DNA of 59,870 nucleotides from Candidatus Kaelpia aquatica (GCA_030765335.1 JAVCCU010000019.1:1-59870), one strand, 5' to 3'; positions 9,306 through 34,947 are shown, counted from the first letter of the stretch. Notes: generated by a model from the sequence alone, not told the origin. A program made the numbers and translations.

Positions 9306-9316
9306 AAGGTTATTGG

Positions 9317-9345
9317 ATTTTAGTGTTTAACCATAATAAAATCAA
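9317..9345 (-). promoter_or_regulatory. Probable promoter of the GT2-LAB_N-GT39 cassette
   Basis: Minus strand TTGATT (9345-9340), 17 bases, TAAAAT (9322-9317), then 11 bases to the ATG at 9305. Same hexamers and spacer as at 6817-6845. Leader would be only about 4-5 bases, with no ribosome-binding site. Confidence 0.45.
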
Positions 9346-9356
9346 GTCTAAATAGA

Positions 9357-12364: not shown

Positions 12365-12368
12365 AACT

Positions 12369-14957: not shown

Positions 14958-16376
14958 TTATAGCAAGGCTGACTTAAAATCCAAATAACTATAAAGATCT
15001 ACATCTTTAAATGACGTTATATGCTCACTATTATTTAAAAAACTAGGCAAATTATGCTTATCCAATAAAGAACTTAAATCCTGATCTTTTTTTAAAACTA
15101 CAAAAACTCTCTCTGTTGTTTTTAAATCTGCTCCCAGATAAGCCCAAGAGACATTATGACGGTGAAAATAATAGGCAAGGATAAAATCTGCAGGCATAAA
15201 ACATACCACATTATCACCTTCTTTAAGTTGCTCTTTTAAAAATAGAACCGCATCTTCTGCCCCATTTAAAGCCCCTGTCTCTTCACTCTTAATAACAGCA
15301 CCTTCATTAATAACCGCCAGAGAGAGAGATAGAGCAGCCAATACAATCAGGGCTCTAAACAATATTTTTTTAAAATCACATTTAAAAATATAGACTAAAG
15401 CGGAAGAGATAATTCCAAAATATAGTGGAATTAGAAACAGAAAGACCCTCTGAGGAGGAAACCTTCTGTTCAAAAGCAATATACTTATTATAGCTAAAAC
15501 AGCAGGGGTTATAATAGAGATATATTTTTTTCTTAACTCTCCTGACCCTGCAATTGCCATAAATAATACTAGGGCCAACGCCAGCCTGCTCCAGCCTGGA
15601 AAATCCCTCATCCAGCTCAACCAAAGACTAGATAGATATTTAGGCAGCTCTTCTATGAAGTCAAAAGAGCATCCGGGTATAACAAATCTATTGGCAAAAA
15701 TAGAGGCCAATCCAGATTTTAGAATAATCGGAAGATATAGTCCAAAACTTAATAACAACACTGCTGTCATTGAGATAATTAACATTTTAATTTTATTTTT
15801 TTTGAATTTATCTTGAATAACTCTAGTTAAAAACAAAAATAATCCTACTGCAATAGGATAAATCATAACTGGAATAGTATAGAGACCCAAGACTGAAGAG
15901 AGTATAAAATATAGCCAGCCATTTTTCTCTGCTTTAAATATAAGCTCTATAGAATAGAAAAAAATAACAGCCAATAACAGATAGAGGGTATAGCCTCTGG
16001 CGTTGGTAGAATACTCTATAAGAAGAGATGAGATTGCAAGAAATGCGGCAGAGATTAAACCAGACTCTTTATTGAATAGAGATGATATCAAGCAATAGCT
16101 CGCAGGAATTAATAGCAGGCCAAAGAGAAGGGAAGGCATGCGCATAACCCATTCAGAGTCTCCTAATAGAACATATAGAGGATGAGCAAAGAGATTATAG
16201 AGAAGATGGTTATTGGGCGCAATATAATGCGACAGAGAAAACGATAGCGGCTGAGAGAAAAAGAATAAAAATCCAAATGCTTCATCATAACGCATGGGCT
16301 GGAAGACGTAGTAGAGCCTCAATCCAAGAGCTATTAATATGAGAACAGCCAGATACCACTTCTCTCTTTTATCCAT
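14958..16376 (-). CDS. GT39-like membrane glycosyltransferase
   Basis: 472 residues with about 11 membrane helices. The first external loop has QPMRYDEAFGFLFF (catalytic-type Asp-Glu), then HYIAPNNHLLYNLFAHP, as in PMT/GT39 relatives that use polyprenyl-phosphate sugars. The C-terminal 110 residues are soluble and should face the periplasm. Start overlaps the stop of the next upstream transferase by 1 base. Donor and acceptor unknown. Confidence 0.75.
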   Translation of the reverse strand: MDKREKWYLAVLILIALGLRLYYVFQPMRYDEAFGFLFFFSQPLSFSLSHYIAPNNHLLYNLFAHPLYVLLGDSEWVMRMPSLLFGLLLIPASYCLISSLFNKESGLISAAFLAISSLLIEYSTNARGYTLYLLLAVIFFYSIELIFKAEKNGWLYFILSSVLGLYTIPVMIYPIAVGLFLFLTRVIQDKFKKNKIKMLIISMTAVLLLSFGLYLPIILKSGLASIFANRFVIPGCSFDFIEELPKYLSSLWLSWMRDFPGWSRLALALVLFMAIAGSGELRKKYISIITPAVLAIISILLLNRRFPPQRVFLFLIPLYFGIISSALVYIFKCDFKKILFRALIVLAALSLSLAVINEGAVIKSEETGALNGAEDAVLFLKEQLKEGDNVVCFMPADFILAYYFHRHNVSWAYLGADLKTTERVFVVLKKDQDLSSLLDKHNLPSFLNNSEHITSFKDVDLYSYLDFKSALL

Positions 16377-17875
16377 TAGTGCAGCACCTCAAAAACTCCG
16401 GATTCACCTTCTGTATAAATAAGATTTAATTTATCTTTAAACCGATATAGAAACGGCCCTAAATACATACGAGTCTGTGCTGAGAAATTATCTACTACTA
16501 TGTAGCCTATCTCTTCTTCTACAACCCTATCCCAGATATCATTGGGATCTTTACTGTAAGGGAATATTAACGATTTATGCTCTGTAAGTAAAAAACTTAC
16601 GGTCGGCTTACGCGATAATATTATTTTATCGTCTACGATATTATCATTAATCCAACCATGAAGAGATATAAACTCCTCTTCTGCTTTCGATATTTTAGTT
16701 AGATCTGGAATTATAAAAAAATTGCCAATTATATTTATCAATAAAACCACAGCCAATATAGAGTAGGTGTGTTTGATTTTAATAAAAATCAAAGCTCTAA
16801 TTATACCTTTTATAAAATAGTAATAAAGAAAAGGAATGATCGGCATAAGAAACCTATGCGTCTCTCTATAAGGCCAAACAATTAAGATACTCATATAGAT
16901 AATAAAGTAATAATTAAATACGGGTCTTTCTCTATCTTTAAAACTTAAATACAATCCAAATAGAACAAATAATGTTATAGGCAGTAATATAAACTTCAAA
17001 ATAGAGTAATTCATTAAACCCATGAGAGGGATAATAACAACTGCTATATCTCGACGATATATGTTAACTCCTTCTATGATTCTTAAAATCAATGTACCCG
17101 GATCTGTAAATATGCTGCCCAAGAAAGGCCTGTAGGGGTCTATTAGCCAAAACTGTCCTGCAATATAGCTCCTGTTGATATCCAAACTCCAGGGGATAAA
17201 TCTCCAGATAAGAAAAAATATAGAAAATAAAACCGAAAGACTTAACGCTGCCCTATAATCACGTTTTATCTTAATAAAAAATAGAATAACAGCTAAAAAA
17301 AGGCTAATACCTATATAGCGTGTAAAATAGCTGAGAATAATTAAAATAAAAGATAGTATCAAAACGCTATATCTCTTTTTATCGTAAGAGTTAAAGTACT
17401 TCAAAATTAATAAAAAACTTAAAAGAGATAAAAAAAGATACAATGCTTCAGTCAATATATGTTTGGTTATATAAACAAAGAAGAACAGATTCGAAGCCGT
17501 TAAAAGAGTAACCCACAACGAGCTTCTCCTATCTAAATAATTCCTCATTAGACAATAGATTAAAATAAGACTGACATACCCTAGAGCTGCAATAAAAATG
17601 TATATAGCCTGATAGTTAAGACCAAAGATAGCTATAATAAAAGAGAGCAAGGTCGAGAAAACCGGCGGATAGTGATCAAAGAACGGCTCACCAGGCAGAT
17701 TTAAAGCACAATGCCCATAACCACTTGAAATACTTTTGGCAAGTATAAGATACTGGGCGCTATCTCCTCCTAATTCTAAGAATTCAGAGCTGATATTACT
17801 TAATGCAAAACACCAGAAAAAAGCACTGAGTAAAACTATTGCGTAGTAAGATTTTATTTTTTTAGATTTAAGCAT
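16376..17875 (-). CDS. GT39-like membrane glycosyltransferase
   Basis: 499 residues, about 12 membrane helices. The first loop has ELGGDSAQYLILAKSI and DHYPPVFSTLL, resembling the PMT_2 arrangement with an Asp in place of the Asp-Glu pair; the soluble C-terminal end (about 400-499) contains a Rossmann-like WINDNIVDDKIILSRKP stretch common in these proteins. Overlaps the GT4 gene by 8 bases and the next GT39 by 1, so translation is coupled. Confidence 0.72.
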   Translation of the reverse strand: MLKSKKIKSYYAIVLLSAFFWCFALSNISSEFLELGGDSAQYLILAKSISSGYGHCALNLPGEPFFDHYPPVFSTLLSFIIAIFGLNYQAIYIFIAALGYVSLILIYCLMRNYLDRRSSLWVTLLTASNLFFFVYITKHILTEALYLFLSLLSFLLILKYFNSYDKKRYSVLILSFILIILSYFTRYIGISLFLAVILFFIKIKRDYRAALSLSVLFSIFFLIWRFIPWSLDINRSYIAGQFWLIDPYRPFLGSIFTDPGTLILRIIEGVNIYRRDIAVVIIPLMGLMNYSILKFILLPITLFVLFGLYLSFKDRERPVFNYYFIIYMSILIVWPYRETHRFLMPIIPFLYYYFIKGIIRALIFIKIKHTYSILAVVLLINIIGNFFIIPDLTKISKAEEEFISLHGWINDNIVDDKIILSRKPTVSFLLTEHKSLIFPYSKDPNDIWDRVVEEEIGYIVVDNFSAQTRMYLGPFLYRFKDKLNLIYTEGESGVFEVLH

Positions 17876-19010
17876 TAGAACTATTTAATGATAAATCTAC
17901 TATGGCAGATGCGATATCCTGCCAGCTGAAATTTTTGACCTTGCTTAACCCATTCTTAATTACTTTTTCCCGAAGGGCACTGTCATTTAAAACAAGCGTG
18001 ATCTTATTTGCCAGGTCATCTGAGTCTCCGGGTTGAAAAAAAATTACTTCCCTATGGTCTTCTGCAATCTCTCTTAATCCTTTTAAAGAAGAGGCTATAA
18101 CTGCAGTTGCTGAGGCCCAGTATTCATAAATCTTAAGAGTAGTAACTATCCTATTGGGCAGATAATCCTTTCTGGGAATAATTCCTATGCTGGCCTTTTT
18201 AAGGTATTGAATAACTTCAGAATGTTCTAAGATCCCGCTAAAAAAACAGTATTTTTTTAGCCCTAGCTCTTTAGCCAATCCTTTAATATATTTAAACTCA
18301 CGCCCTCCGCCTATAAATAAAAATCTTACATCATTATCCTCCTGTATCACTTTAGCAGCTGCCTTCACTATTAAATCCACTCCATGTTGACGATCTATCG
18401 CTCCTAAATGGATAATATTCTTATTGGCCCCTATATCCTTCTCTTTATTAAAATCAGCAGCATCGACACCATCATAGATAACTTTTATTCTTTCTTGCGC
18501 TATGCTTCTTTTGATCAAAAGATCTTTCATTGCATGCGTTGCAACGATTATAGCCTCAGCATAAGAGATAATCCAATATTCATATCTAATTAGATAAGGA
18601 CTTATAATACGTTCTAAGATATTCCTGCTTCCTATGGGCAGATACTCTGCATGTATATCGGTTATATCTAAGACAAACTTAAATGAAAAAAACATCTTTA
18701 AAAAAGGAATGGTCACTGCAGATATTGTATTGTGTATAAAAAATATATCTGCATCTTCTACGAGCCAGAGGAACTTTCTCATTAATCTTATATTGAATTT
18801 AATACTGCTTAAGATTTGAGAGCGCTGCTTTCTAGGCGGATGCAGCCATTCAACGCTCATATCTTCAATCTTAGATACAGCATCTGTCGGAGCAACTATA
18901 ACCACATCGTGACCTCTCCTCTTAAACTCCCGAGCAACTCTCAGCGTTCTTATAGCACCTCCCCCTTTTAAGGGAGCTAAAGAGTCATGTGTTGAAACAA
19001 TAATTTTCAT
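17868..19010 (-). CDS. GT4 family glycosyltransferase
   Basis: 380 residues with the GT-B fold of family 4: N-terminal LKGGGAIRTLRVAREFKRRGHDVVIVAP, central NIIHLGAIDRQHGVDLIVKAA, and C-terminal EYWASATAVIASSLKGLREIAED with the E-x7-E donor motif and GDSDDLANKI. It uses a nucleotide sugar in the cytoplasm to extend a lipid-linked glycan. Lies between a B12-type radical SAM gene and a GT39-like gene within one operon. Confidence 0.88.
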   Translation of the reverse strand: MKIIVSTHDSLAPLKGGGAIRTLRVAREFKRRGHDVVIVAPTDAVSKIEDMSVEWLHPPRKQRSQILSSIKFNIRLMRKFLWLVEDADIFFIHNTISAVTIPFLKMFFSFKFVLDITDIHAEYLPIGSRNILERIISPYLIRYEYWIISYAEAIIVATHAMKDLLIKRSIAQERIKVIYDGVDAADFNKEKDIGANKNIIHLGAIDRQHGVDLIVKAAAKVIQEDNDVRFLFIGGGREFKYIKGLAKELGLKKYCFFSGILEHSEVIQYLKKASIGIIPRKDYLPNRIVTTLKIYEYWASATAVIASSLKGLREIAEDHREVIFFQPGDSDDLANKITLVLNDSALREKVIKNGLSKVKNFSWQDIASAIVDLSLNSSNA

Positions 19011-19016: not shown

Positions 19017-20501
19017 TCAATTATTTTTTAATTCATCAATTAAAACTACGTATAATTTTATTATAAACATTTTAATTCCCATACCTCGTAAAGTTCTAAA
19101 AAAGATATTCATATTCCTTAAAACTAAAAATGGAGAGAGCCATTTTTTAAGAAACCAGATTAGTATGGTCTTGCTTCTAAGCTTACTTAAATTAATGCCC
19201 TCTCTATAGACAGCCCCCTTGCCGTCATAGCTATTGAACTTTAAAGATTTATCCTCTTGAGCCATCACGTAAAACCTTGTCCCAGGATAAGGAACAGCTA
19301 TGCTTATCTGTATAGAGTCTGCTTTAAGATTATGGATATAGGCTGCCGATACTCTTAAATCTTCTCTGCCTTCATTCAATAGCCCAAAAATGAAAGTGGC
19401 ATGCGTCTTAATACCATATTTAGCACAGATATTTATCACTTTAATGACCCTCTTTAAATCTATAGGCTTCCCAATCTCCTTAACGATTTTTTCGCTGCCG
19501 CTCTCTACGCCAAATTTAATGCCTATACAACCGCCATCAGCCATAGTTTTAATCAATTCTTCATCAATATTTATAGCATCAGCCATGCAGCTCCATTTCA
19601 ACTCTAATTTTCTGTTTTTAATCTCAGAGCATAAATCTAGAACAAACCTTCTGTCTATTGTAAAATCATCATCATCAAAATATATCTCTTTAGCCTTATA
19701 TCTCCTCTTAATCATCTCCATCTCCTCTACTACTATCTGAGGAGAGAAAGTCCTATATTTGCCGCTATTGTACATGACCTGATTAAAGAGACAAAAATAA
19801 CACCTATAAGGACAGCCCCTAGATGCCTGGAGCTGATAAGCAGGGTAATTTTGACAAAAACCATCCCAATAGATACCGGGATTTGGTTTCTCATTTAAAG
19901 GAAAGAGATCGCGCTCTGGATAAGGTAATCTATCTAAATCATCAATCAATATTGACTCTCCTGAATCAATAATCTCCCCTTCTTTGCTATAAATTATTCC
20001 ACTTTTTATCTCTACATTATCCCTTAAATGTCTAGCTACATTTAAAAGAGAGAACTCATATTCACCTTTTAAGATAAAATCCACAGCCTGGTTATCCTCT
20101 ATGATCCCCTTAGCAAAAACAGTAGCATAAGAGCCTCCTAAAGCTATACACATATCTCCATAGACACTCTTTATCTTATATGCAAAACGAATATCGTATT
20201 GTGAGGTAAGAATAGTAGGTTCATAGAAGACTAGATCTGGTTTTACTTTTTTTATGATATCAAGCAGATCTTCTTCGCCTATATCCGCGGCTACAGCATC
20301 AACTATATGGACTTTGAAACCATCTCTATTGAGCAAGGCAGCAGAATAACCCAGAAAAAAAGGAAATGGCAGATAGTGAGCAAGGGTGTTCTTCTTTTTA
20401 ACTCCTGAATGGGGCCAGCGAGAACCAGATCTTATATAATACTTTTCATATTTAGAATCTATATCATATTTAACCAATGGATTTAAAAGTAATACTTTCA
20501 T
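19017..20501 (-). CDS. B12-binding-domain radical SAM protein
   Basis: 494 residues. The N-terminal part (about 1-160) matches the B12-binding-like domain (MKVLLLNPLV, GYSAALLNRDGFKVHIVDA, ALGGSYATVFA), followed by a radical SAM core with QASRGCPYRCYFCLFN (CxxxCxxC), IYFDDDDFTID and GIKFGVESGSEKI. This is the architecture of BchE/HpnJ-type enzymes that perform methylations, cyclisations or C-C bond chemistry on lipids or sugars. Substrate unknown; placed in the glycan operon. Confidence 0.85.
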   Translation of the reverse strand: MKVLLLNPLVKYDIDSKYEKYYIRSGSRWPHSGVKKKNTLAHYLPFPFFLGYSAALLNRDGFKVHIVDAVAADIGEEDLLDIIKKVKPDLVFYEPTILTSQYDIRFAYKIKSVYGDMCIALGGSYATVFAKGIIEDNQAVDFILKGEYEFSLLNVARHLRDNVEIKSGIIYSKEGEIIDSGESILIDDLDRLPYPERDLFPLNEKPNPGIYWDGFCQNYPAYQLQASRGCPYRCYFCLFNQVMYNSGKYRTFSPQIVVEEMEMIKRRYKAKEIYFDDDDFTIDRRFVLDLCSEIKNRKLELKWSCMADAINIDEELIKTMADGGCIGIKFGVESGSEKIVKEIGKPIDLKRVIKVINICAKYGIKTHATFIFGLLNEGREDLRVSAAYIHNLKADSIQISIAVPYPGTRFYVMAQEDKSLKFNSYDGKGAVYREGINLSKLRSKTILIWFLKKWLSPFLVLRNMNIFFRTLRGMGIKMFIIKLYVVLIDELKNN

Positions 20502-20514: not shown

Positions 20515-22437
20515 TTAAAAAACTTCTATTCCTTTGGGAATATCATAACCTAAATCTCTGGCTTTATTTATAAAAACAGCTGCCTTCATCCTATCACCGC
20601 AACCTAAATAATATAATCCCAAATTGTAATAAGACGCAGCAAATTCCGGGTCTATCTTTGACGCTCTTCTTAGATAAAATACAGCCTCTTTTAAGCCTCT
20701 CTGGGCTAAAATAGTCCCTAAATAAAAGCACCCCTCTTTATGAAAAGGGTAGACCAAGAGGAGTTTCTTATAATAATCTATAGCCTCATCGCTCTCACCT
20801 GTAAGCTCGCTTATTCTGCCAAGAAGAAAATAATACCCCGGGTAATCTAAGCCTAAACTATGAGATCTGTTTAAATAATCACGGGCTCTGCTTAGCTCTC
20901 CTTTCCTAAACAGATAATCTCCTCCATAAAATAAAAGTTTTGCATTATCTGGATATTCTTTTATCAGCTCTTCAAATCCAAAATCACCTGTTTTTAGATA
21001 TATAATTTCAAGCAAACTGTAGACATCATTGGCGTAAGGAAACTCTTTTAAGGCTTTTACGGCAATCTCCTCTGCTTCTTCATATCGAGCTTCGTCAATT
21101 CTTATCTGAACTAAATTAAGAAGAGCTTTTACTTTAAGCTGAGGGTTTCTAGCATTTAATATTAATCGATCAAACCGCTCTTCTGCAGCAGAATATCTTT
21201 TTTCTGCTTTAAAATATGTTCCGATTTGAAAATCAGCAATCTCAGAATCCGGATAACGCTCCATAATATCGCAAGATGCAATAAGTTCATTTTTATAAAG
21301 CGGATTTCTTAAATATGTAACCAAGCCAAGCCCGATTAAAAATATAAGTAGAAGTGGGTTGAAAATATGTTTTCTGATCTTCACTCTACTTAGGAGTACA
21401 TAGAGAACAAATATAATGCCTATCTGCGTTAAATAAAAATGGCGCTCTCTAGCTATTGATTCTAGTTGAATATAAAATCTCCAAAAATAAAAAGATACTC
21501 CCCATAGAATCCCAAACTTTATCCTGTTATTGGCTCTTACAAAGAGTATTAAAAAAATGACAAGTACAAAGGCCATAATCCAGCCTGCCGGATCAAAGTA
21601 CGATAGAGCCTCTATGCTCTGGTGGTCAAAAGAAAATCCTGCCGGTACAAAGAAGAGTTTTATAAAGAGCAGCAGGGCTTTAAGTTGGGTTAAAATGTTT
21701 AACCCCCAGGTTCTAAACTGAATATCTACTACAGCTTCTGCAAAAACAGCCAGTTTCATTATTTTCCAATAGATAAAGATAGAGATTGAGATCAAAAGGT
21801 AAGGAGCCAAGCAAATAAACTTTTTTAATCCCCTTTTACCGAACAATAGAATATATGAGAATAGAATTGGAAGATACAAAACAAAATGCTCTTTGGTTAA
21901 AGCAGCAGCCAAATAAAATACAACGGAAAGATATAGTAGGTGTTTAGCTTTGGATAAACTGTACTTTAGAAAAAAATGAAAAGAAAGAAGTATAAAAAAG
22001 CTGAAAAGTAAAGTAGACCTTGCCATAATATGTACCACCGCATCAAGATTTATAGGATGGACCAAAAAAAAGATAGATAACAAGAGCGCTATTTTAGAAT
22101 CAGGCTCTTTGAAGAAAAGACATAATATCCTGTACAGAAAAAACGCAGAGAGAGCATGAAGTAGAATATTAAAAATTCTATATCCTAAAGTATTATAATT
22201 CGAAAAGCTATAACTTAAATTATAACTAAGCATAAATAAAGGCCTGAATGCTCCTTTAACATCCTGAGATATATGGCCCAAAAAGTAGTAGGGAGTAAAA
22301 GAGGAGCTCCTTATTAGACAATTCTCTGCTATTAAATAATGATCGCTAAATATAAACCCATTATTCAGCGAGGTCGAATAAATACCAAGCCCTAAAATCA
22401 AAAAAAGCAAAAGAATGCACCATTTACTCTTCAACAT
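20515..22437 (-). CDS. TMTC-like GT-C membrane protein with TPR domain (copy 1)
   Basis: 640 residues: about 10-11 membrane helices up to residue 370, then TPR repeats to the end (AEERFDRLILNARN, EEAEEIAVKALKEFP, SRARDYLNRSHSLG, EAIDYYKKLLLVYP, LRRASKIDPEFAASYYNLG). The first loop has NNGFIFSDHYLIAENCLI and the second HPINLDAVVHIMARSTLL with ALTKEHF after it, the signature of TMTC (GT105) proteins, which O-mannosylate secreted or membrane proteins in animals. Overlaps the next paralogue by 14 bases. Substrate here unknown. Confidence 0.8.
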   Translation of the reverse strand: MLKSKWCILLLFLILGLGIYSTSLNNGFIFSDHYLIAENCLIRSSSFTPYYFLGHISQDVKGAFRPLFMLSYNLSYSFSNYNTLGYRIFNILLHALSAFFLYRILCLFFKEPDSKIALLLSIFFLVHPINLDAVVHIMARSTLLFSFFILLSFHFFLKYSLSKAKHLLYLSVVFYLAAALTKEHFVLYLPILFSYILLFGKRGLKKFICLAPYLLISISIFIYWKIMKLAVFAEAVVDIQFRTWGLNILTQLKALLLFIKLFFVPAGFSFDHQSIEALSYFDPAGWIMAFVLVIFLILFVRANNRIKFGILWGVSFYFWRFYIQLESIARERHFYLTQIGIIFVLYVLLSRVKIRKHIFNPLLLIFLIGLGLVTYLRNPLYKNELIASCDIMERYPDSEIADFQIGTYFKAEKRYSAAEERFDRLILNARNPQLKVKALLNLVQIRIDEARYEEAEEIAVKALKEFPYANDVYSLLEIIYLKTGDFGFEELIKEYPDNAKLLFYGGDYLFRKGELSRARDYLNRSHSLGLDYPGYYFLLGRISELTGESDEAIDYYKKLLLVYPFHKEGCFYLGTILAQRGLKEAVFYLRRASKIDPEFAASYYNLGLYYLGCGDRMKAAVFINKARDLGYDIPKGIEVF

Positions 22438-23881
22438 CTCTAGAATAACTCTCCTCTAAAACTTTGAGTCTCTCTTTTGCTAAATCAAACCCCGGAACTA
22501 TGTCCAAACTTTTATTATAATATCTGATGGCCTGATCCCTACCCCCTCTTTCTTCAGCAATCAAAGCAAGTCCATAGTAGGCTAAGTGAAGCTCAGGAAA
22601 TACAGCAATAGATCTTTTGAACTTTTCTTCAGCATCTGGATATCTTCCTTCATTAAAATATATCATGCCTAAATTATAATGAGCCTTATAGTTGAATGGG
22701 GTATGCTCAATCTCATTCTTATAAAAATCCTCAGGAACAAGCCACTCTTTATTACGCTCTAGGGTTGAAAAGCTATAAAATATAAGCATGCCTGCTATAA
22801 GAATATAGCTAGCGTACCTATATACTGCTTTCCTATAAAAGAGATTATATATCAATGCTGCCATTAAAGTAAAGATCGCAGGCAGCCCTAGATAGAGCCA
22901 ATGCTCAGCACAAGGAGCATTCAATGCAACTATCACTCCGGATATAAGTAAAAAATTCAAAAGATACCATATAGAGAAAAATACCATTCTCTTGCTCTTT
23001 CTAATTAAATAAAGTCCAAGACAAGAGATTAAAGAAAATAAAATTAAATATAGAATGAATGCAAAATCTTTAGGTGAATCTATATAATTAATGGCATAGG
23101 AGAGCCTGAGATTATGAGGAAAAAATATCATTTTTAGATATCTAAAAAACAGAGATGGTGCAGTTAAGAGTCTCTCACTTAGTGCAGGCTTAATGAAAGT
23201 AGCGGCTAAAGAGCCTGGCAGCCTCAGTAATAGATAAATAATAGCTGCAGCTAGATGGTAAATGAGATACCGCAAATAAGAGCGGTAAAAGATGACTACA
23301 TAGATTGAGAGCAATAAGGGCACTATCAAAGCTATCTCTTTGGATAAGATTGCAGCTATAAAAGATAACAGGCTTAAAATAAGAACACTATTTTTATGAT
23401 TATCTAAAAACTTGAAAAATAAGATTAGTGATATAAAAGAAAAAGCTCCCGCCAATAAATCAGCCCTGCCGGATATATAACTTACCGCATTAGTATTGAT
23501 AGGATGAATTACAAACAGGAGCGCTGTTAAAAAAGCTTCTTTTCTTACTTTCACAAAAAATAAGCTTAATATATAAATCAGCAGAGAGTTTACTATATGT
23601 ATTATGATATTTGTAAAATGATACCCCCAGGGATTAAAACCCCAGATTTTATAATCTAACATATAGGATATAATCTGCAGCGGCCTAGCTGGTAATCCCG
23701 TTGAGCCAAAATCAAAAACATCCTTAAAGACTTTTGGTATATATTGAAAAGAAGTTATGAGATAATTATTAACTACAAGATGGAAATCATCGTAGATAAA
23801 CGGGGCATCTAAAACACTTAGATAAAGAACCAGGCCTAAAGCTATAATTATCGAGCTAGGAAATATATTAATTATCTTCAC
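22424..23881 (-). CDS. TMTC-like GT-C membrane protein with TPR repeats (copy 2)
   Basis: 485 residues, about 10 membrane helices followed by two to three TPR units (HYNLGMIYFNEGRYPDAEEKF, AYYGLALIAEERGGRDQAIRYY). First loop DAPFIYDDFHLVVNNYLI has the YDD/FDD acidic motif; next HPINTNAVSYISGRADLL and AAILSKEIALIVPLLL match the TMTC family closely. Second member of a tandem triplet; overlaps both neighbours by 14 bases, so the three are co-translated. Confidence 0.82.
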   Translation of the reverse strand: MKIINIFPSSIIIALGLVLYLSVLDAPFIYDDFHLVVNNYLITSFQYIPKVFKDVFDFGSTGLPARPLQIISYMLDYKIWGFNPWGYHFTNIIIHIVNSLLIYILSLFFVKVRKEAFLTALLFVIHPINTNAVSYISGRADLLAGAFSFISLILFFKFLDNHKNSVLILSLLSFIAAILSKEIALIVPLLLSIYVVIFYRSYLRYLIYHLAAAIIYLLLRLPGSLAATFIKPALSERLLTAPSLFFRYLKMIFFPHNLRLSYAINYIDSPKDFAFILYLILFSLISCLGLYLIRKSKRMVFFSIWYLLNFLLISGVIVALNAPCAEHWLYLGLPAIFTLMAALIYNLFYRKAVYRYASYILIAGMLIFYSFSTLERNKEWLVPEDFYKNEIEHTPFNYKAHYNLGMIYFNEGRYPDAEEKFKRSIAVFPELHLAYYGLALIAEERGGRDQAIRYYNKSLDIVPGFDLAKERLKVLEESYSRDVEE

Positions 23882-25361
23882 TATTAAGAGCCTCTAGAGA
23901 ATCTAGGGTTTTTAAATTCAATAAAGCTAGTCTGCTATCATCATCTATAGCAATTAATAGCTTAAACCACTTTCTAGCTTCTGAATACTGCCCTAATCGC
24001 ATAAATATAACACCTAGATTATTGTAGGTTTCGTCTAAAGAAGAATAGGTATAATAACCGCTAAAATCCTGCGCTGCCAAATGATAATAATAGATAGCTT
24101 GACCATAATCATTATTTATGAGATAGCTATAGCCAAGCATATTGTATGCTTCCTCACTTTTTAACGAAACGCTTAGAGCTCTCCTAAACAATATTTGATC
24201 ATTTTTAAAATAGCTCTGATATTTAAAACCAACTATGGCGTAAAACAATACAGCTGCTACTAACAGACGTTTAAACTTTTTCAAAGCACCAAGATGCCCT
24301 AAGATAAATATTAATCCTACTCCTGGAAGGTAGAAAAATCTTTCCGCCCAAAAATGTAATCCAGGAAGAATATTGGATATAGGAGCATAAAAACATAGCA
24401 GCCAACCTAAGGAAAACATATACCGTTGATCTCTTTTTATTATAGATCTAAAAAAATAGAAAACCAAAATGGAGAGTATCAAAATACCCGAGAATACCTC
24501 TAAATTGAAGATAGAATCATATTTTGGAAAAGCATCGCTTAAAGAAAGATTGAGAGGTACAAAAAATTTAAAAATATACCTAAATAATCCTGCAAAAGAA
24601 GAGAGTAGAGCAACGGCTGGCTGAGACCGCATTAAAGGAACAGAGCTACCTATATAGCCTAATATTATTGATCTCCAAAATATATATCCAAAAGCAATTA
24701 ATGTATAATAGGCAGAATAAAACCTTAATCGGGGTTTTACAATAGAGTAGATTACTACTAACAGAAAAAATGGCCATGCAATCTCTTTGCTTAGCAGGGC
24801 TAAAATATAGGCTATAATGGATAGTACTATAAATCCCTTGAACCTTTTTTCTAAAAATAAAAGCAAACTCAAAAGAGATGCCAAAATAAAAAATGTGACT
24901 AAAAGATCTGCCCTGGCGCTTATCAGCACAACAGCAGATAGATTGATGGGGAGAAGGCCCCAAAGAAGAGTCAACATTAGAGACAAGCCTTGAGATACCT
25001 TTAATCTTAACAAAATGAAATATAAAAAAACCAGATTAAAAATATGTATCCAAATCGACACTAAACGAAACCCGGACGGACTCTCTTTGAATAGAGAATA
25101 GTTAAAACTATGTACTATCTTAAAAATAGGCCGATAGTAGTTTCTTCTACCGCCATCTTTTAAGGTAGAGCTGAAGAATGCGTCTTTAAAATCTTCTTTA
25201 TCTTCTAATATAGACTCTTTGGATTTAATTTGAAAATGATCTAGCCATAGAAAATCGTAACTTAAGGATTTAAAGAAGAATGCCGATGCTATAAAAATTA
25301 GCAATAGAACAGAGAGCGCCTTACTCTGTCTTTTAAATTTTGAAGATAACAATCTTAGCAC
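23868..25361 (-). CDS. TMTC-like GT-C membrane protein with TPR repeats (copy 3)
   Basis: 497 residues with about 10 membrane helices and two C-terminal TPRs (NMLGYSYLINNDYGQAIYYYH, NNLGVIFMRLGQYSEARKWF). First loop YDFLWLDHFQIKSKESIL has an Asp in the position of the family DD motif; LPINLSAVVLISARADLL and ALLSKEIAWPFF follow. GTG start at 25361, with no ribosome site and a -10-like TAGAAT 6 bases upstream. First transcribed of the triplet. Confidence 0.8.
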   Translation of the reverse strand: MLRLLSSKFKRQSKALSVLLLIFIASAFFFKSLSYDFLWLDHFQIKSKESILEDKEDFKDAFFSSTLKDGGRRNYYRPIFKIVHSFNYSLFKESPSGFRLVSIWIHIFNLVFLYFILLRLKVSQGLSLMLTLLWGLLPINLSAVVLISARADLLVTFFILASLLSLLLFLEKRFKGFIVLSIIAYILALLSKEIAWPFFLLVVIYSIVKPRLRFYSAYYTLIAFGYIFWRSIILGYIGSSVPLMRSQPAVALLSSFAGLFRYIFKFFVPLNLSLSDAFPKYDSIFNLEVFSGILILSILVFYFFRSIIKRDQRYMFSLGWLLCFYAPISNILPGLHFWAERFFYLPGVGLIFILGHLGALKKFKRLLVAAVLFYAIVGFKYQSYFKNDQILFRRALSVSLKSEEAYNMLGYSYLINNDYGQAIYYYHLAAQDFSGYYTYSSLDETYNNLGVIFMRLGQYSEARKWFKLLIAIDDDSRLALLNLKTLDSLEALNSEDN

Positions 25362-25401: not shown

Positions 25402-26262
25402 CTATTCTCTATCTTTGACAAAAAGCTGGGCTATCTGCTCAGCTATAAGTGAGAGCAGAAATATGATAACCGAGGTAGAGAAAAGCAGCAGGCTCATATT
25501 GGTAAAACTATGCCAATTAATATAGGTGTAGATATAATATATCAATCCTGTAATAAAAAATATAAATGAGATCGGCAAGAACACCTTAAATGGAGAGTAT
25601 ATAGTAGCTATCTTTACAATGATAAGTATAAATTTAATTCCATCTTTTAAAATATTTATCTTGCTCGACCCTTGCTCTCTTTCTAACATCTCAACCTTTT
25701 GAAATTTTATACTCCTGCCTGTTTTAAGCAAAGCCAGAGTTAAAGTGGTTGGGTAAGAGAATCCGTTGGGTAGAAGATATAGAAACCGCTTACATAGATC
25801 CGCCCTGATAAGCCTAAAGCCTGAGGTTAAATCGACTATCTTTGTAGCTGTAACATAGCTTGCTAAGCTATTGAATATACGATTGGCAATATTTCTATGC
25901 CAAGAACCTCTATGTCCGACCCTTGAGCCAACAACCATATCATAGGAACCTAACCCTTTAAGCAGTTTAGTAATCTCTTTGGGAGGGTGCTGTGAGTCTG
26001 CATCCATCAATAATATCCAGTCCCCGCTTGAGGCTCTAATGCCACTCTTTACCGCAGCACCATTGCCTATATTATAAGGATGCCGAATCAATTTAATATA
26101 ATCTAAGCCGTGCTCTAGCCAGTCTGATATCTTCTCTCTAGACCCATCATCAACTACTATAATCTCTTTCTCATAATCCAGCAATTCTTTATCAATATCT
26201 TTTAAAAGGCCAAGAAGGCCCTCTGATTCATTATAGGCTGGTATTACTACGGAGAGCTTCAT
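25402..26262 (-). CDS. GT2 glycosyltransferase with C-terminal membrane segments (GtrB/DPM1 type)
   Basis: 286 residues: GT-A domain LSVVIPAYNESEGL, IVVDDGSRE, LLMDADSQHPPKEI, DLTSGFRLIRADLCKRF, then two membrane helices (about 215-275) as in GtrB and polyisoprenyl-phosphate hexose synthases. It should load undecaprenyl phosphate with a sugar for the neighbouring GT-C enzymes. It lies just below the strong terminator of the pilin gene with no clear promoter of its own, so its expression may depend on readthrough. Confidence 0.86.
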   Translation of the reverse strand: MKLSVVIPAYNESEGLLGLLKDIDKELLDYEKEIIVVDDGSREKISDWLEHGLDYIKLIRHPYNIGNGAAVKSGIRASSGDWILLMDADSQHPPKEITKLLKGLGSYDMVVGSRVGHRGSWHRNIANRIFNSLASYVTATKIVDLTSGFRLIRADLCKRFLYLLPNGFSYPTTLTLALLKTGRSIKFQKVEMLEREQGSSKINILKDGIKFILIIVKIATIYSPFKVFLPISFIFFITGLIYYIYTYINWHSFTNMSLLLFSTSVIIFLLSLIAEQIAQLFVKDRE

Positions 26263-26327: not shown

Positions 26328-26660
26328 TCAAGGAGTGTGGTCATGTTCTGTTACAACACCTGTAGCTGCAACATAAGTATAAGCATCCCCATTCGGACAT
26401 AATGCTGTATCTCCAGAAGCAAAATAGTTATGCGCAAACGTAGATAAAGCTAAGGTTGTAGGAAATACCGCACTGCCAGCAATTGCTGTCTGTGCATAAT
26501 AAGCAGCAAGTGCAGATCTTATGGTAGCAACAGTTCCATCACAAGCAGCCTCTCTTGCATTTGCCTGTAAATCGATGAACTTAGGAACCGCTATAGCTGC
26601 CAAAATAGATATAACAACTATTACCATTACCAATTCAATCAGTGTAAAACCACGTTTCAT
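26328..26660 (-). CDS. Type IV pilin / major pseudopilin (GspG or PilA type)
   Basis: 110 residues: leader MKRG/FTLIELVMVIVVISILAAIAVPKF with Gly -1 and Glu +5, followed by the helix and an Ala/Thr-rich globular part with two cysteines (AACDGTV, ALCPNGD) that could form a disulfide. Short length fits a GspG-like main pseudopilin or a small pilin. Perfect AAAGGAGGTG 7 bases before the ATG, own terminator downstream and 177-base divergent region upstream: an independent, likely highly expressed unit. Confidence 0.88.
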   Translation of the reverse strand: MKRGFTLIELVMVIVVISILAAIAVPKFIDLQANAREAACDGTVATIRSALAAYYAQTAIAGSAVFPTTLALSTFAHNYFASGDTALCPNGDAYTYVAATGVVTEHDHTP

Positions 26661-26837: not shown

Positions 26838-28670
26838 ATGGGTATACTCCAAATATTACTGACCTATATTTACCTGCTCTTCCTTTTAAACAATTTGGGC
26901 AGATATATCATTACTGCTGATATATCTAACAAATTATACTGCAAGATACCATTTGCTATCATACTTATAACTCTTATAACCACTCTGCTGGGATTTACAG
27001 GTCTGCTAAAAGCACAGTATATCTTGACCTCAATAATTATACTATCACTATTACTGCTTAGACCTATGATTAAAGACTGTAAGTCATGCTTATCAAAGCT
27101 CAACTATTTAAAAACTATTAGAGCTGAAATAATTCTACCTTTATTATTAATAGCATCTTATCTTTTCATAACACAGCTTAATGCCCTAACTCCTCCGGTC
27201 TCACGCGATGCATTAAACTATCACCTCTACTTACCAAAATTATACCTAGAAGATGGACAGATTATGACAATAGCAGAGAATATTTACAGCTACTTCCCTG
27301 CTTACTGGGGGCTATTCTATTCATTTTTGATATCTCTATCTAGCGATATCATGCCTAAATTAATGCACTCTCTGTTTCTTATAATGAGTATTTTTTTAAT
27401 CATGGACTTTGTTAAGATCTTAAATAGAGAGGCCAAACCCATACATGGCATGATTGCAGGAATAATATTTCTCTCGGCTCCTACAATAACAAAGAATGCC
27501 GCATGGGCTTACCTCGACATAAGCTTCTCCTTCTATCTTCTGCTTGGAATCTACATGATAATACAATCCCGGCAATCTAGAAACAGAGCCTACCTCTACC
27601 TTGCTGCAATCTCTATTGGTTTTGCAACAGGAATGAAGTATCTAGGTCTAATCTGGATTGCACTATCAGGACTGCTAATAATTGAGATAGATGGAAGTAT
27701 CTATAAGTCATTTAAATCCTGTCTCAGGTTTGCTCTAGTTGCCACTCTCATTGCTTCTCCTTTCTATATTAGAAACTATATTCAAACAGGCAACCCCTTC
27801 TTCCCGTTTTTATCAAACATATTTGGATATCAAAACATCGAGGCAGAAAAATTCGAATTAATTATGGCTTATTTTAAAAGCTACGGAGAAGGCATTTATT
27901 TTAAAGACTTTCTACTTCTACCCTATAGATTGCTATTTGAATCTGAATTTGGAATCCCAAGTAAATTTGATGGAAAAATAAGCTTGCTCTTCATAGCAAG
28001 TATCGCTGCAATTATTAAAATAAGAAAGACCATCCCATACAAAAGCCTGCTATACATGCCGCTAATATACTTACTGCTTTGGTTCTTACTCAGCCAGCAA
28101 ATAAGATTCTTAATACCGCTGCTTGCAATCCTATCCATTATAACCGGCTTCTATTTGAGTCTTCTAAAATTAAAATATTTAAACTATGTACTCATATTTG
28201 CAGGATTACTATATCTCTATTACCCCTTGAAAGACTGCTATAAAATTAAACCTTATAATTTTATTTTGGGCAGAGAATCAAAATCTGAATTTATGACGCA
28301 CCATATAAGGGCCTACCCTATAATAGAATATATAAATAATAGTCTCCCTCAAAAAGCCAAGATAATGCTCCTAGAGATGGGACCAATAGCCTATCTCCTA
28401 GAAAGAGAGCTTTATCAAGAGAGCATCTTTGAAGAATATTCCTTCAGAAAAAGGCTAAAAAGTTCAAGAACCAGTATAAACCTGTTTTTCAAAGAGAATA
28501 ATATTGACTTCATATTAATAGACGAACAATTTATGAAAACATATACAGCTCCTCTTATGGAAAAAAAAGAGTTATACACATTAGGGGAGGTCTACTTTAA
28601 AGATCTAGCTCTTCAATATCGCTGGAATAATTTCGCATTATATAAGATTAATATTGAAAACGGTACTTGA
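26838..28670 (+). CDS. GT-C (GT39-like) membrane glycosyltransferase
   Basis: 610 residues with about 12-13 membrane helices. After the fourth helix comes LTPPVSRDALNYHLYLPKLY, an acidic loop motif of GT-C enzymes, and later FYIRNYIQTGNPFFPFLSN, a signature of a PMT_2-like branch; the last 120 residues form a soluble domain. It is the only plus-strand gene between 1 and 39787 and its last 23 bases overlap the 3' end of the minus-strand GT2 gene. Probably moves a lipid-linked sugar to an envelope acceptor; details unknown. Confidence 0.8.
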   Translation: MGILQILLTYIYLLFLLNNLGRYIITADISNKLYCKIPFAIILITLITTLLGFTGLLKAQYILTSIIILSLLLLRPMIKDCKSCLSKLNYLKTIRAEIILPLLLIASYLFITQLNALTPPVSRDALNYHLYLPKLYLEDGQIMTIAENIYSYFPAYWGLFYSFLISLSSDIMPKLMHSLFLIMSIFLIMDFVKILNREAKPIHGMIAGIIFLSAPTITKNAAWAYLDISFSFYLLLGIYMIIQSRQSRNRAYLYLAAISIGFATGMKYLGLIWIALSGLLIIEIDGSIYKSFKSCLRFALVATLIASPFYIRNYIQTGNPFFPFLSNIFGYQNIEAEKFELIMAYFKSYGEGIYFKDFLLLPYRLLFESEFGIPSKFDGKISLLFIASIAAIIKIRKTIPYKSLLYMPLIYLLLWFLLSQQIRFLIPLLAILSIITGFYLSLLKLKYLNYVLIFAGLLYLYYPLKDCYKIKPYNFILGRESKSEFMTHHIRAYPIIEYINNSLPQKAKIMLLEMGPIAYLLERELYQESIFEEYSFRKRLKSSRTSINLFFKENNIDFILIDEQFMKTYTAPLMEKKELYTLGEVYFKDLALQYRWNNFALYKINIENGT

Positions 28671-29343: not shown

Positions 29344-30006
29344 TTATTCCAACAGAGAGAACCCTTGTTTTAAAGCAAGCTTACCTCTATCTCTATCGCT
29401 TATACTTGTAAAGACCATACCATATTCATGGCCATCATCTACGCTCTTCGCCCATACAATTTTAGCTTCACCGGTCAAAGGCCAACTCTCCTGAGGCAGA
29501 TAAAGCCTGAAATAACACTCATCGCCTTTATCAAAAGAGTCTTGGGAGAAAACTTTCATACCTGTTGTGCTTAAATCTTTAGTTAATCCTTTAATGGTAA
29601 ACTCTTTGTCTGTCAATCTACGCATCTCAAGATCAAAACACATGCCAGTCCTTAAGGCCAGCCTATCACCTTCTATATTTTTTCCGACAGCAGTCTTACC
29701 TTTAGCTGCCTTAGAAATAAAATATAAATAAGGTATACACACTATGGTCGCCGGGTATATTAAAAAAATACTACTCTTCAATATTGAAAAAACTATGGAA
29801 TAAACAAAGAACGAGCCGACAATAACACTTAAAATATCAACCAGCTTAAAATTGACTAGTTCAGGTTTCTTGTAAAAAATAAGAGCTGTCAGCAAAAAAG
29901 TAGCCAATATCAAAGAGAGGCAGATATTCACTGCAGCTGAAAGTTTAAAAGCCAATATAAACAACAACACCGCCCCGGATAGAATACATATTTTTATCTC
30001 TTTCAT
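29344..30006 (-). CDS. Membrane-anchored PilZ (c-di-GMP-binding) protein
   Basis: 220 residues: four hydrophobic segments in the first 95 residues, then a PilZ domain with the two cyclic-di-GMP motifs RLALR (RxxxR) and DLSTTG (DxSxxG), followed by VIFRLYLPQESW-like strands and EYGMVFTSIS. Both ligand motifs are intact, so binding is likely. It overlaps the GspF gene by 1 base, which suggests c-di-GMP control of the secretion/pilus machine. Confidence 0.85.
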   Translation of the reverse strand: MKEIKICILSGAVLLFILAFKLSAAVNICLSLILATFLLTALIFYKKPELVNFKLVDILSVIVGSFFVYSIVFSILKSSIFLIYPATIVCIPYLYFISKAAKGKTAVGKNIEGDRLALRTGMCFDLEMRRLTDKEFTIKGLTKDLSTTGMKVFSQDSFDKGDECYFRLYLPQESWPLTGEAKIVWAKSVDDGHEYGMVFTSISDRDRGKLALKQGFSLLE

Positions 30007-31232
30007 TATGTTTTAAATAATTGGGTCATATTCCACATAGGCAAGAACACTCCCATAGCTAAGATTAACACACCGACAGCAAGAAAAGCAGTAAGTACTG
30101 GTTCTATTGTGACAGTTAGAGCATCTATCTTGCTTTTTAATTCCATATGATAATAAGAGCTCAAAGATTCTAACACTATATCCATAGCTCCTGTCTGCTC
30201 TCCTACTCCAATCATATTGCCGACCAATTTAGGAAAAGCTTTGCTCTCTTTCATCAAAACAGAGAGAGCCTGGCCTTCTGATACCCCCTTCCCAAAACCT
30301 TCAATCTGATTTTGCAAAAAATCATTACCTAAAGTCTTAGAAACAATTTCGAGGGCTTTTAAAATCGGTATGCCTACACTATTTAAGGCGTTAAAAATAA
30401 AGCAGAATCTAAGCAGGCTTACTTTAAGAAATATCTCCCCGAATATAGGAATTCTTAGTTTTATCTTACCCCAGAGAAAACTGCCGCGACTTGTCTTTCT
30501 CCAATAATTAAATCCTATAACACTTGCCAATGTAAACACTACTAAAAAGACAATATTATTTATCAAGAATCCGCTAGTTCCTAAAAGTATTCTCGTAGGT
30601 AAGGGCAGCTCCACATCAAACTGGCCATAAACTCTTGCAAATCTGGGTATTACAAATAAAGATATGCAGAATATAGCAGATATTATTCCCGTAAAAACAA
30701 GGACCGGATAACGCAAAGCATTCTTTACCTCTACAGATATATTGTAATCCCTCTCCATCGTCTTAGCAAGATTACTTAATATTTCATCCAGCGTACCTGC
30801 AACCTCGCCTGAGGCAATCATCTCGGTGTAAATCTTAGGAAAGACATCGGAGAAGCTTGCCATGGCTTTAGACAATGGTACTCCCTGTTCAACTTTAACA
30901 ATGACTTCAGAAAGAACCGCTTGAAAAAATTTATCTTGAGTCTCTTCAACTAAAAACCTTAACGCATTCACAATAGGAATCCCGGCTTTAATAGTAGTAG
31001 AAAACTGCAGAGTGAAGGCTATTAAGTCCCTCTTGTTTACACGGTTCTTAAAAATAGAGAACCTGTTATCTCTTTTAACCGAAGTAGTAGCAGCTTCGAC
31101 TTTATCAAAACTTATTGGAAGCAAGTCTCTCTCTTTAAAAAACTGCATCAATTCGCTCTCGCCTGTAACGGTTACTTTACCCTTAACCGCTTCTCCGTTC
31201 TTATTTCTTGCAAGATAATTATAAATAGCCAT
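30006..31232 (-). CDS. gspF: T2SS/T4P inner-membrane platform protein GspF/PilC
   Basis: 408 residues from the ATG at 31232: MAIYNYLARNKNGEAVKG start, two T2SSF domains (FTLQFSTTIKAGIPIVNALRFL; LLRFCFIFNALNSVGIPILKAL) and three membrane helices. The same frame extends to a TTG at 31274 but that part lies in the gspE gene and does not look like GspF. It is the membrane platform turned by GspE. Positioned after gspE as in most T2SS/T4P operons. Confidence 0.93.
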   Translation of the reverse strand: MAIYNYLARNKNGEAVKGKVTVTGESELMQFFKERDLLPISFDKVEAATTSVKRDNRFSIFKNRVNKRDLIAFTLQFSTTIKAGIPIVNALRFLVEETQDKFFQAVLSEVIVKVEQGVPLSKAMASFSDVFPKIYTEMIASGEVAGTLDEILSNLAKTMERDYNISVEVKNALRYPVLVFTGIISAIFCISLFVIPRFARVYGQFDVELPLPTRILLGTSGFLINNIVFLVVFTLASVIGFNYWRKTSRGSFLWGKIKLRIPIFGEIFLKVSLLRFCFIFNALNSVGIPILKALEIVSKTLGNDFLQNQIEGFGKGVSEGQALSVLMKESKAFPKLVGNMIGVGEQTGAMDIVLESLSSYYHMELKSKIDALTVTIEPVLTAFLAVGVLILAMGVFLPMWNMTQLFKT

Positions 31233-31239
31233 TTTAAAA

Positions 31240-33033
31240 TTATTCTCTTTTGGTCTTTTTTTCTTTTTTAGCAATCCACTCTTTCATATCTTTATTATAA
31301 TTCTCTACATCCTCGATTGCTATTTTGCTCTCTCTCTTAGCTCCTGCCTTTACTTTAACATCTTCGTCTAAATTGATATCCTTCTTAGGTTTAATTTCGA
31401 CCACCTCTTCGCATACTCTAGAGACTTCATCTAAAGTAATAGCGCCTCGCAATGCTTTTGTTATACCATCTTCAAACAATGATTTCATTCCTTTAGATTG
31501 GGCCTTGCTGCGTAACGCTACAACCGATGCGCCAGAAATGATCATCTCTTTTAATTCGTCATCTAAAAGCAAGACCTCAAAAAGACCGACTCTCCCTTGA
31601 TAGCCTGTGCCTTTACAGTAATCGCAGCCCTCTCCCTTATAGAGGGAGATCTTCTTGTTATAGCTGCGCAAATTAAAGCGCTCAATAATCGACTCAGAGG
31701 CTTTATAGCTAACCTTACATTGGGGGCAGATCTGTCTTGCTAATCTCTGAGCCATAACCGCAATAAGGCTAGCAGAGATAAGATAAGGCTCTACTCCCAT
31801 ATTTTGCAATCTTGTAACAGCAGAAGGAGCATCATTTGTATGCAGCGTAGAGAACACAAGATGTCCGGTTAAAGCTGCTTGTATAGCTATGGTTGCCGCA
31901 TCCATATCCCTAATCTCTCCAATCATTATAATATCAGGGTCATGCCGCAAAATAGAACGCAGACCGCTTGTAAAATTCAACCCTGCCCTAGAATTGACCT
32001 GCACCTGTCTTATTAGAGGAAGCCTATACTCTACAGGATCCTCAACTGTTACAATATGCTTATCTATAGTATTAAGCTCCATAAGGGCTGAATAGAGTGT
32101 TGTTGTTTTCCCACTTCCAGTGGGACCTGTAGTAAGAATCATGCCGTAAGGTTGTGCTATTGCCTTTCTAAACAGTCTCAGGGAATCACCGTCAAAGCCA
32201 AGCTTCTCCAGGCCTAAGAGTACATTGGCTGTATCGAGAATCCTCAAAACTACATTTTCTCCGTTGATCGTCGGCAAGGTTGAAACCCTGACGTCAATCT
32301 CCTTAGCATCTACATCGACTTTAAAGTGGCCGTCTTGAGGCAATCTAGACTCTGCTATGTCCATATTAGCCATGACTTTTATGCGAGATATCATAGCCAT
32401 CTCAAACGATTTGGGCGGAGATGGAACTTCTTGTAATACGCCATCAATCCTAAATCTTATTCTGAGCTTATCCGCCTCAGGTTCAATATGGATATCAGAA
32501 GTTCTGTCTCTAACAGCCTGAGCTATGACAAGATTGATGATCTGAATAACAGAATCTCCCATATCATCGCCTATCTCTCCAATCTTCTGAACTATCTTCT
32601 CTGCGCTAGATACTGATCTATAGACTTTATCAATACCGCTATTCATCTCAGACCCAGATAATAAAACAGGTCTTACATTGAATCCTGTAAAATTACGGAT
32701 TTCGGTCATAGCCGCTTGGGCTATAGGAAATAGTGTGCCTACAAAAAACCAATCGTTAATTTTAAATAGAGGTAATACATTGTTTTTACGGGCAAAATCC
32801 TCTGGCAGCATATATGTTGTATCTTTGCCAAAATCAATATAATCTAGCTCTAGATAGGGGATCTTATAAAAAAGAGATAGCTCTTTAAAGACTACCTTTT
32901 CGTTCTCCGAGTTCATCTCAATGAGAATTTCTAAGATATCTTTATTCTTTTGAACAGATAAAGATTTAGCCTTCTCTATCTGCCTTTGATCTATCAACCC
33001 CTTCTCAAGTAATATAGGAATAATCTCTTGCAT
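31240..33033 (-). CDS. gspE: T2SS/T4P assembly ATPase GspE/PilB
   Basis: 597 residues: N-terminal GspE domain (1-130), CTE/N2 region, Walker A GPTGSGKTT at 303-311, VTVEDPVEYRLP Asp box, IIMIGEIRD Walker B, TGHLVFSTLHTND His box, and a zinc tetracysteine (CPQC...CDYC). A charged Lys/Glu-rich tail of about 60 residues follows. It powers pseudopilus or pilus assembly at the inner membrane. Confidence 0.95.
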   Translation of the reverse strand: MQEIIPILLEKGLIDQRQIEKAKSLSVQKNKDILEILIEMNSENEKVVFKELSLFYKIPYLELDYIDFGKDTTYMLPEDFARKNNVLPLFKINDWFFVGTLFPIAQAAMTEIRNFTGFNVRPVLLSGSEMNSGIDKVYRSVSSAEKIVQKIGEIGDDMGDSVIQIINLVIAQAVRDRTSDIHIEPEADKLRIRFRIDGVLQEVPSPPKSFEMAMISRIKVMANMDIAESRLPQDGHFKVDVDAKEIDVRVSTLPTINGENVVLRILDTANVLLGLEKLGFDGDSLRLFRKAIAQPYGMILTTGPTGSGKTTTLYSALMELNTIDKHIVTVEDPVEYRLPLIRQVQVNSRAGLNFTSGLRSILRHDPDIIMIGEIRDMDAATIAIQAALTGHLVFSTLHTNDAPSAVTRLQNMGVEPYLISASLIAVMAQRLARQICPQCKVSYKASESIIERFNLRSYNKKISLYKGEGCDYCKGTGYQGRVGLFEVLLLDDELKEMIISGASVVALRSKAQSKGMKSLFEDGITKALRGAITLDEVSRVCEEVVEIKPKKDINLDEDVKVKAGAKRESKIAIEDVENYNKDMKEWIAKKEKKTKRE

Positions 33034-33036
33034 CTC

Positions 33037-33414
33037 TTAAATAAATTTTTTTATCTCTTCAAATATATAATCTATGTTGTATATTTTGAATAAGACTTTA
33101 TCAATATCTTCGTCTTTCGCAATCTCCTGAGCCTTATTATCCAAAGTATCTGTTATAAGTATTGCCTTCATATCTTTAAACCTTTTGTCTTTCTTAAGAA
33201 ACTTAAAAATCAGATGACCATCCCAGTCCCATTGAGGAAATATCATCTCCAATACCACAACCTTAGGCTGTCTTGACTGTATTTTACAAAATGCATCAAA
33301 AGCTTCATTCACAACAGAGACCTCCTTAGCCGTAGAGTCCTTCTGTATTTTATCTGAAAGAAGATTTAAAAATTGTAAATCTCCGCCACCGAGCAGGACA
33401 TATTCATCATTCAT
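33037..33414 (-). CDS. Degenerate response-regulator receiver (pseudo-receiver)
   Basis: 125 residues with the alternating beta-alpha pattern of a CheY-like domain: YVLLGGGDLQFLNLL, PKVVVLEMIFPQWDWDG, KAILITDT and VLFKIYN with Lys110. The phosphoryl-accepting Asp after strand 3 is replaced by Glu56 and the acidic pair after strand 1 is reduced to Asp12. Stand-alone, without output domain. It lies between gspE and the coiled-coil gene (gaps 3 and -4), so it is probably a structural or constitutively active partner in the secretion machine. Confidence 0.72.
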   Translation of the reverse strand: MNDEYVLLGGGDLQFLNLLSDKIQKDSTAKEVSVVNEAFDAFCKIQSRQPKVVVLEMIFPQWDWDGHLIFKFLKKDKRFKDMKAILITDTLDNKAQEIAKDEDIDKVLFKIYNIDYIFEEIKKFI

Positions 33415-34943: not shown

Positions 34944-34947
34944 AATA

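Follow-up and report, generated by a model that had tools for sequence, protein, structure and literature searches.

The locus examined here raises the question of what three adjacent genes, each combining a GT-C-like membrane domain with TPRs, might do in a bacterium. The genes lie within a 59,870-nucleotide stretch of Candidatus Kaelpia aquatica (phylum Omnitrophota; GCA_030765335.1 JAVCCU010000019.1:1-59870), which as a whole we refer to as the window, and we call them A, B and C in order of transcription. Eukaryotic TMTC1-4 (CAZy family GT105) are O-mannosyltransferases for cadherins. The human proteins have 11 membrane regions, with motifs M1 to M7 located in loops (PMC7801869). Our preferred answer, to which we assign a probability of roughly 0.55, is that the three genes encode active GT-C glycosyltransferases that have diverged from one another within a bacterial TMTC-like family, and that would use a lipid-linked sugar donor and act on exported proteins.

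Arrangement of the three genes

A first-pass annotation of the window had described three minus-strand genes in tandem, encoding GT-C-like proteins with TPRs and overlapping their neighbors by 14 bases. This description is accurate, and the overlap is exact at both junctions (Table 1). The motifs quoted there, i.e., HPIN/LPIN, R(A/S)(D/T)LL and (S/T)KE, are also present. Because the start codons of B and C lie inside the last codons of the preceding gene, with 14-nucleotide overlaps, translational coupling is likely, and the proposed co-translation of A, B and C is probable. The proteins are only 26-29% identical in pairwise comparisons (BLASTP E-values 1e-19 to 4e-28), and are therefore old, true paralogues rather than recent duplicates. 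Pfam TPR families score above their cut-offs in all three. The number of repeats is about 2-3 in A and B and about 7 in C, as counted from Pfam matches and, for B and C, predicted helices.

Table 1. Features of the window, with coordinates counted from its first nucleotide
Feature	Coordinates	Strand	Remarks
Gene A	23868-25361	(-)	497 aa, GTG start; first of triplet in transcription order; motifs: EL1 WLDH (Asp41), RAD, SKE, AERFFYLP
Gene A, GT-C-like membrane domain	24177-25334	(-)	followed by C-terminal TPRs
Gene B	22424-23881	(-)	485 aa, GTG start; second in transcription order; motifs: EL1 YDD (invariant Asp32), RAD, SKE, AEHWLYLG
Gene B, GT-C-like domain	22712-23881	(-)	passes Pfam PMT_2; 2-3 TPRs
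Gene C	20515-22437	(-)	640 aa, ATG start; last in transcription order; motifs: EL1 SDH (Asp32), RST instead of RxD, TKE, RERHFYL
Gene C, GT-C-like domain	21265-22437	(-)	plus about 7 TPRs
A/B overlap	23868-23881	(-)	14 nt, GTGAAGATAATTAA
B/C overlap	22424-22437	(-)	14 nt, ATGTTGAAGAGTAA; same length in same-genus genome
GT2 with C-terminal hydrophobic stretches	25402-26262	(-)	resembles ArnC, PgfS and AglJ polyprenyl-phosphate-sugar synthases; 40 nt upstream of A
GspG/PilA-like pilin	26328-26660	(-)	N_methyl above cut-off; upstream of GT2; candidate acceptor
HpnJ-like B12/radical SAM protein	19017-20501	(-)	directly downstream of C
GT4 glycosyltransferase	17868-19010	(-)
Two more GT-C proteins (PMT_2)	14958-17875	(-)	without TPRs
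Pilus/type II secretion core	29344-36357	(-)	PilZ, T2SSF, T2SSE/MshE-type ATPase, TPR protein, secretin
Pilin-like cluster	9357-11173	(-)	four small ORFs, two above N_methyl cut-off

Relationship to GT-C and TMTC proteins

We collected about 40 near-full-length membrane domains from relatives. The family profile, with 32 members, has 11 hydrophobic segments, while scans of the single sequences give 11 hydrophobic stretches for A, 10 for B and 12 for C. Lys and Arg are more frequent in loops 2-3, 4-5, 6-7, 8-9 and 10-11 than in the short loops 3-4, 5-6 and 9-10. By the positive-inside rule, this bias predicts that the N-terminus is inside and the TPRs, which at least 30 of the 32 sampled members carry, are outside. 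The conserved residues of the profile lie in, or at the edge of, the predicted outer loops EL1 to EL5: D32 and R66-P67 in EL1, R139 and D141 in EL2, K181-E182 in EL3, P255 in EL4, and E326 and Y330 in EL5. The invariant residues among these (D32, R66, P67, R139 and P255) are kept in A, B and C.

Protein B passes the cut-off of Pfam PMT_2 (PF13231) with 32.3 bits against 26.1. Neither A nor C matches PMT_2 directly; both are homologous to B, at the E-values given above. We therefore assign the three proteins to the predicted PMT_2/GT-C group, B by profile and A and C by their homology to B. A comparison of the family profile with the local PMT_2 proteins gave a probability of 94.6%.

The first-pass annotation had also called the proteins TMTC-like. 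The architecture bears this out, with an 11-segment GT-C membrane domain followed by TPRs that have the same predicted sidedness as in TMTC1-4. Strict TMTC/GT105 membership is a part of the claim that we do not make, since the proteins do not reach the DUF1736 (PF08409) cut-off. Up to an E-value of 0.1, none of the three proteins matched DUF1736, and none of 20 relatives scored above the cut-off (best E-value 2.2e-4). Weak, sub-threshold matches occur in 4 of 32 family members, and that in the same-genus orthologue of B (5.9e-4) falls in the expected loop, TM7-TM8.

A similar picture emerges from the TMTC motifs, whose positions in the bacterial family correspond to an Asp and RP in EL1, RxD in EL2, KE in EL3 and E(R/H)xxY in EL5. 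For M1 (DD in EL1), only B has the strict DD, with LD in A and SD in C. M2 (SHKSYRP, EL1) is not kept beyond R66-P67, which mostly appear as YRP. M3 (RxD, EL2) is RAD in A and B, and RST in C. M4 (KE, EL3) is KE in all three proteins; across the family, the Glu is found in 31 of 32 members and Lys or Arg in 32 of 32. The stretch of EL4 matching M5 (DW) contains no DW in A, B or C. M7 (ERxxY, EL5) appears as ERFFY in A, ERHFY in C and EHWLY in B, EH being the commonest form in the bacterial family. A further difference from TMTC1-4 is that polyprenol, rather than dolichol, is the expected lipid. Judging by these alignments, the triplet is most like TMTC in architecture and motif layout.

Genomic neighborhood and candidate acceptors

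ArnC-ArnT and PgfS-PgfM1 both follow the usual scheme of a GT2 working with a GT-C enzyme. The GT2 gene adjacent to A, to judge by the synthases that it resembles, probably supplies the donor. A GT2 also lies beside a family member in three other genomes, at L052 and L058 (with overlaps of 17-19 nucleotides) and at L050. Pilin and pilus genes flank the triplet both in the window and in a genome of the same genus (G001), so that the pilus neighborhood noted in the first-pass annotation is syntenic. Also downstream of the triplet are genes for a GT9, a methyltransferase, a SPASM protein, a GT2 and another PMT protein. On the opposite strand, between the pilin and pilus machinery genes, positions 26838-28670 encode a GT-C-like protein of the Leptospira LIC_10190/LA_3751 type (sub-cut-off NCBIfam match).

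In other genomes, a C-like gene adjoins the orthologous pilin cluster (G002, L053), and a member comes after T2SS/pilin-like genes (G018, L061). However, most family members that we examined are away from recognized pilus genes, and pilin is therefore not the general acceptor.

Three characterized systems offer partial parallels. The PgfS-PgfM1-PgfM2 system of Streptococcus mutans modifies surface adhesins (PMC5856776). As in the window, a GT2 (PgfS) is encoded with PMT_2-type membrane proteins; however, this system is Gram-positive, has no described TPRs and includes two membrane proteins, versus the three TMTC-like proteins here. TfpW of Pseudomonas aeruginosa group IV is a GT-C pilin arabinosyltransferase that accompanies a pilin gene (PMC11841053). 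Because it glycosylates its pilin, it is a precedent for a GT-C enzyme encoded alongside its acceptor, although it is a single enzyme, and we compared it by description only. We know of no TPRs in TfpW. The ArnT and ArnC pair likewise joins a GT-C transferase to a GT2 polyprenyl-phosphate-sugar synthase, and ArnT has an acidic EL1 motif (PMC7801869). However, its acceptor is lipid A, and it is without TPRs.

The example of ArnT, a GT-C enzyme that acts on a lipid, is also relevant to another explanation, namely that A, B and C add sugars to a lipid or glycan (LPS core, O-antigen or another surface polysaccharide), while the TPRs merely hold the enzymes together or to the export machinery. The locus is indeed full of sugar enzymes (GT9, GT4, several GT2, further PMT_2 proteins and a methyltransferase), and members elsewhere are frequently without a nearby pilin. 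We nevertheless regard this explanation as doubtful, given that TPRs are usually protein-binding modules, that TMTC proteins, the nearest characterized relatives of the same architecture, act on proteins, and that the pilus genes are directly adjacent as well as syntenic.

Conserved residues and possible inactivity

The first-pass annotation treated YDD, SDH and LDH in the first loop as letter-for-letter equivalents, and suggested that their differences might reflect differing specificities or an inactive copy. However, the motifs do not align in this way. In our alignment the invariant EL1 residue is the last Asp of YDD but the middle residue of LDH and SDH. Of the 40 aligned sequences, 39 have Asp at this position and one has Glu. 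The residue before it varies (Asp in 33, Leu in 4, of A type, and Ser in 2, of C type; non-Asp in 7 of 40 overall), while the residue after it is frequently His, Glu or Asn. Thus SDH and LDH lose only the variable preceding residue, and we dropped the inactive-copy reading after this realignment. Conservation also speaks against it. In the comparison with G001, B has an omega of 0.15 and C one of 0.16, values like those of neighboring enzymes, so both are under strong purifying selection, and the membrane domain of C is the best conserved of the three between the congeners (85% identity, versus 76% for B and 50% for A). The earlier view of three diverged, separately conserved putative transferases is upheld.

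The register of the first loop calls for some caution. In a profile alignment with low local confidence, D32 aligns with the Asp of PDE in a PMT protein of the window (6847-8331, PDEGRYAE), while in eukaryotic proteins it is the first Asp of DD that has been aligned with the known catalytic Asp (PMC7801869). Conservation in the bacterial family favors the second Asp as the probable key EL1 residue. Because the loop is longer by one residue in A-type proteins, their register may be shifted by one position. Whichever register applies, A, B and C each retain one Asp at the EL1 site, and inactivity is not implied.

The first EL1 Asp is absent from both A and C, and C is the most altered copy, with Ser in place of this Asp and with the EL2 Asp lost as well. 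Its same-genus orthologue shares both changes, while two among its nearest sister proteins retain FDD and RSD. One could thus propose that C, and perhaps A, is catalytically dead and serves as a scaffold or regulatory partner of B in a hetero-oligomer, which would also suit three overlapping genes. We consider this unlikely: the sole invariant EL1 Asp, R66/P67, R139, KE and ExxxY are kept by all three proteins, the first Asp is variable elsewhere too, and a dead partner is hard to square with the conservation of C's membrane domain noted above.

Structural searches had little bearing on the membrane domain. AlphaFold models had mean pLDDT values of 53.7 and 62.7, which were low over much of the membrane part, and this poor modeling can be attributed to alignments of only four rows. 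Foldseek matches of these low-confidence models were TPR and other helical-repeat proteins, and we left them out as evidence on the GT-C half. A profile search of the PDB with the membrane domain matched no solved GT-C, and a search for further family sequences in viral contigs found none. While the absence of a GT-C structural match by Foldseek and the pilus neighborhood might suggest that the three proteins help to assemble pili as TPR-bearing membrane proteins and are not glycosyltransferases, this is very improbable in view of B's score above the PMT_2 cut-off, the profile match to PMT_2 proteins, the sub-threshold DUF1736 matches and the conservation of catalytic motifs across relatives.

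Proposed mechanism

Under our preferred explanation of three active TMTC-like transferases, the N-terminal domain would cross the membrane about 11 times from an inside N-terminus, placing the conserved loops and the TPRs in the periplasm. The GT2 would load a sugar onto polyprenyl phosphate in the cytoplasm, and the polyprenyl-linked sugar would be flipped and then transferred by each GT-C protein. The invariant Asp of the first periplasmic loop may be the residue that activates the acceptor, with the K/R-E, RP and E(R/H)xxY positions surrounding the donor phosphate, and the TPRs may recruit or orient the exported protein acceptor. The most plausible acceptors are envelope proteins encoded at this locus, pilins among them. 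Three diverged enzymes would fit three acceptors, or three successive steps, and might equally work together as a hetero-oligomer.

Apparent exchange and a deletion relative to a related genome

The whole neighborhood occurs in the same order in G001, including the tandem arrangement. However, A is exceptional: it is only 53-55% identical between the two genomes, with pS of 0.76 versus 0.34-0.58 in 13 other genes. Exactly where A begins, nucleotide identity drops from about 0.81 to 0.52, and it stays low until about 0.5 kb inside B. When window positions 22424-25361 are compared with L046:14589-17517, a block of about 2 kb that covers A and the beginning of B is synonymously saturated, while its surroundings are 80-88% identical. 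Rapid protein evolution alone was rejected as an explanation for how far A has diverged, since the saturation extends to synonymous sites. Most simply, one lineage would have acquired a diverged allele in place of the A slot and the first part of B.

In the tree, the window's A groups with that of G002, not that of G001 (support 100/98); the pilins of G000 are nearer to G001 (81-87% versus 64-71%). The affinity of A to G002 is strongest in the N-terminal third. When all of A is compared, identity is 55% with G001 and 48% with G002, a pattern that points to a mosaic gene. The A-type subfamily is confined to this family of genomes among those sampled.

A second difference lies after C, where the radical SAM and GT4 genes are missing in G001. 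A short N-terminal remnant of the radical SAM gene is left (L046:19380-19560), which indicates that the pair was deleted there.

Distribution in Omnitrophota

The first-pass annotation had presented a bacterial TMTC-like triplet as a rarity. This was overstated, since the family's membrane domain was found in 54 of 78 sampled Omnitrophota genomes and in 44 of 62 genera (E <= 1e-30), and prokaryotic homologues have been reported (PMC7801869). Same-strand arrays of 2-4 members account for 23 of the 150 members listed, versus 0.8 expected at random, and arrays of four and five members occur at L048 and L049. Given a widespread family and recurrent arrays, the triplet is typical of a phylum-wide habit. 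In the tree, the members of the L048 array arose by local expansion, whereas A, B and C of the window each fall in a distinct and older subfamily.

Several further observations were made in these genomes. The sample maximum is fifteen members, in one genome of 3.5 Mb (G037). An HpnJ-like B12/radical SAM gene adjoins a tandem array in three genomes of different families (L048:5348-6796, L049:87-1586 and the window, Table 1). However, the link did not recur in the 78-genome sample, and we treat a general association of such genes with tandem arrays as a lead only. On another contig of the window's own genome (C8, L054), two SPASM-like radical SAM genes lie between two very diverged members (7903-9492 and 11531-12937). 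The second member has an HpnJ-like radical SAM gene next to it, and the first has Glu for the invariant EL1 Asp. Finally, a giant open frame of 24,191 codons in G003 (L071) includes a stretch of TPRs (C12:47509-48000) that matches those of C at 48% identity. Pili, giant ORFs and traits that suggest host dependence are reported to abound in Omnitrophota (PMC10066038).

Implications

To our knowledge, TMTC enzymes have been studied almost only in animals. A 2021 source mentions full-length prokaryotic homologues that are uncharacterized, among them AMJ42_05695 of a deltaproteobacterium (PMC7801869). They have the same full-length GT-C and TPR architecture, and neither tandem arrays nor pilus linkage is described for them in the part of the source that we used.

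A broader hypothesis, which we advance tentatively, is that Omnitrophota possess a phylum-wide, repeatedly tandem-duplicated set of TMTC-like GT-C/TPR proteins, in which each copy would serve its own acceptor or step, and slots would be exchanged between lineages, resulting in varied glycosylation of the pilus or surface. Such a set would include bacterial protein O-glycosyltransferases of the TMTC type. A small set of genes that follow one another, for a predicted donor synthase, three putative transferases and candidate pilins as acceptors, would constitute a simple bacterial system, and the triplet could show the role of the TPR half and which loop residues set the choice of donor and acceptor. 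For the organisms themselves, surface glycosylation is suggested to be a large and changing investment in the small genomes of Omnitrophota.
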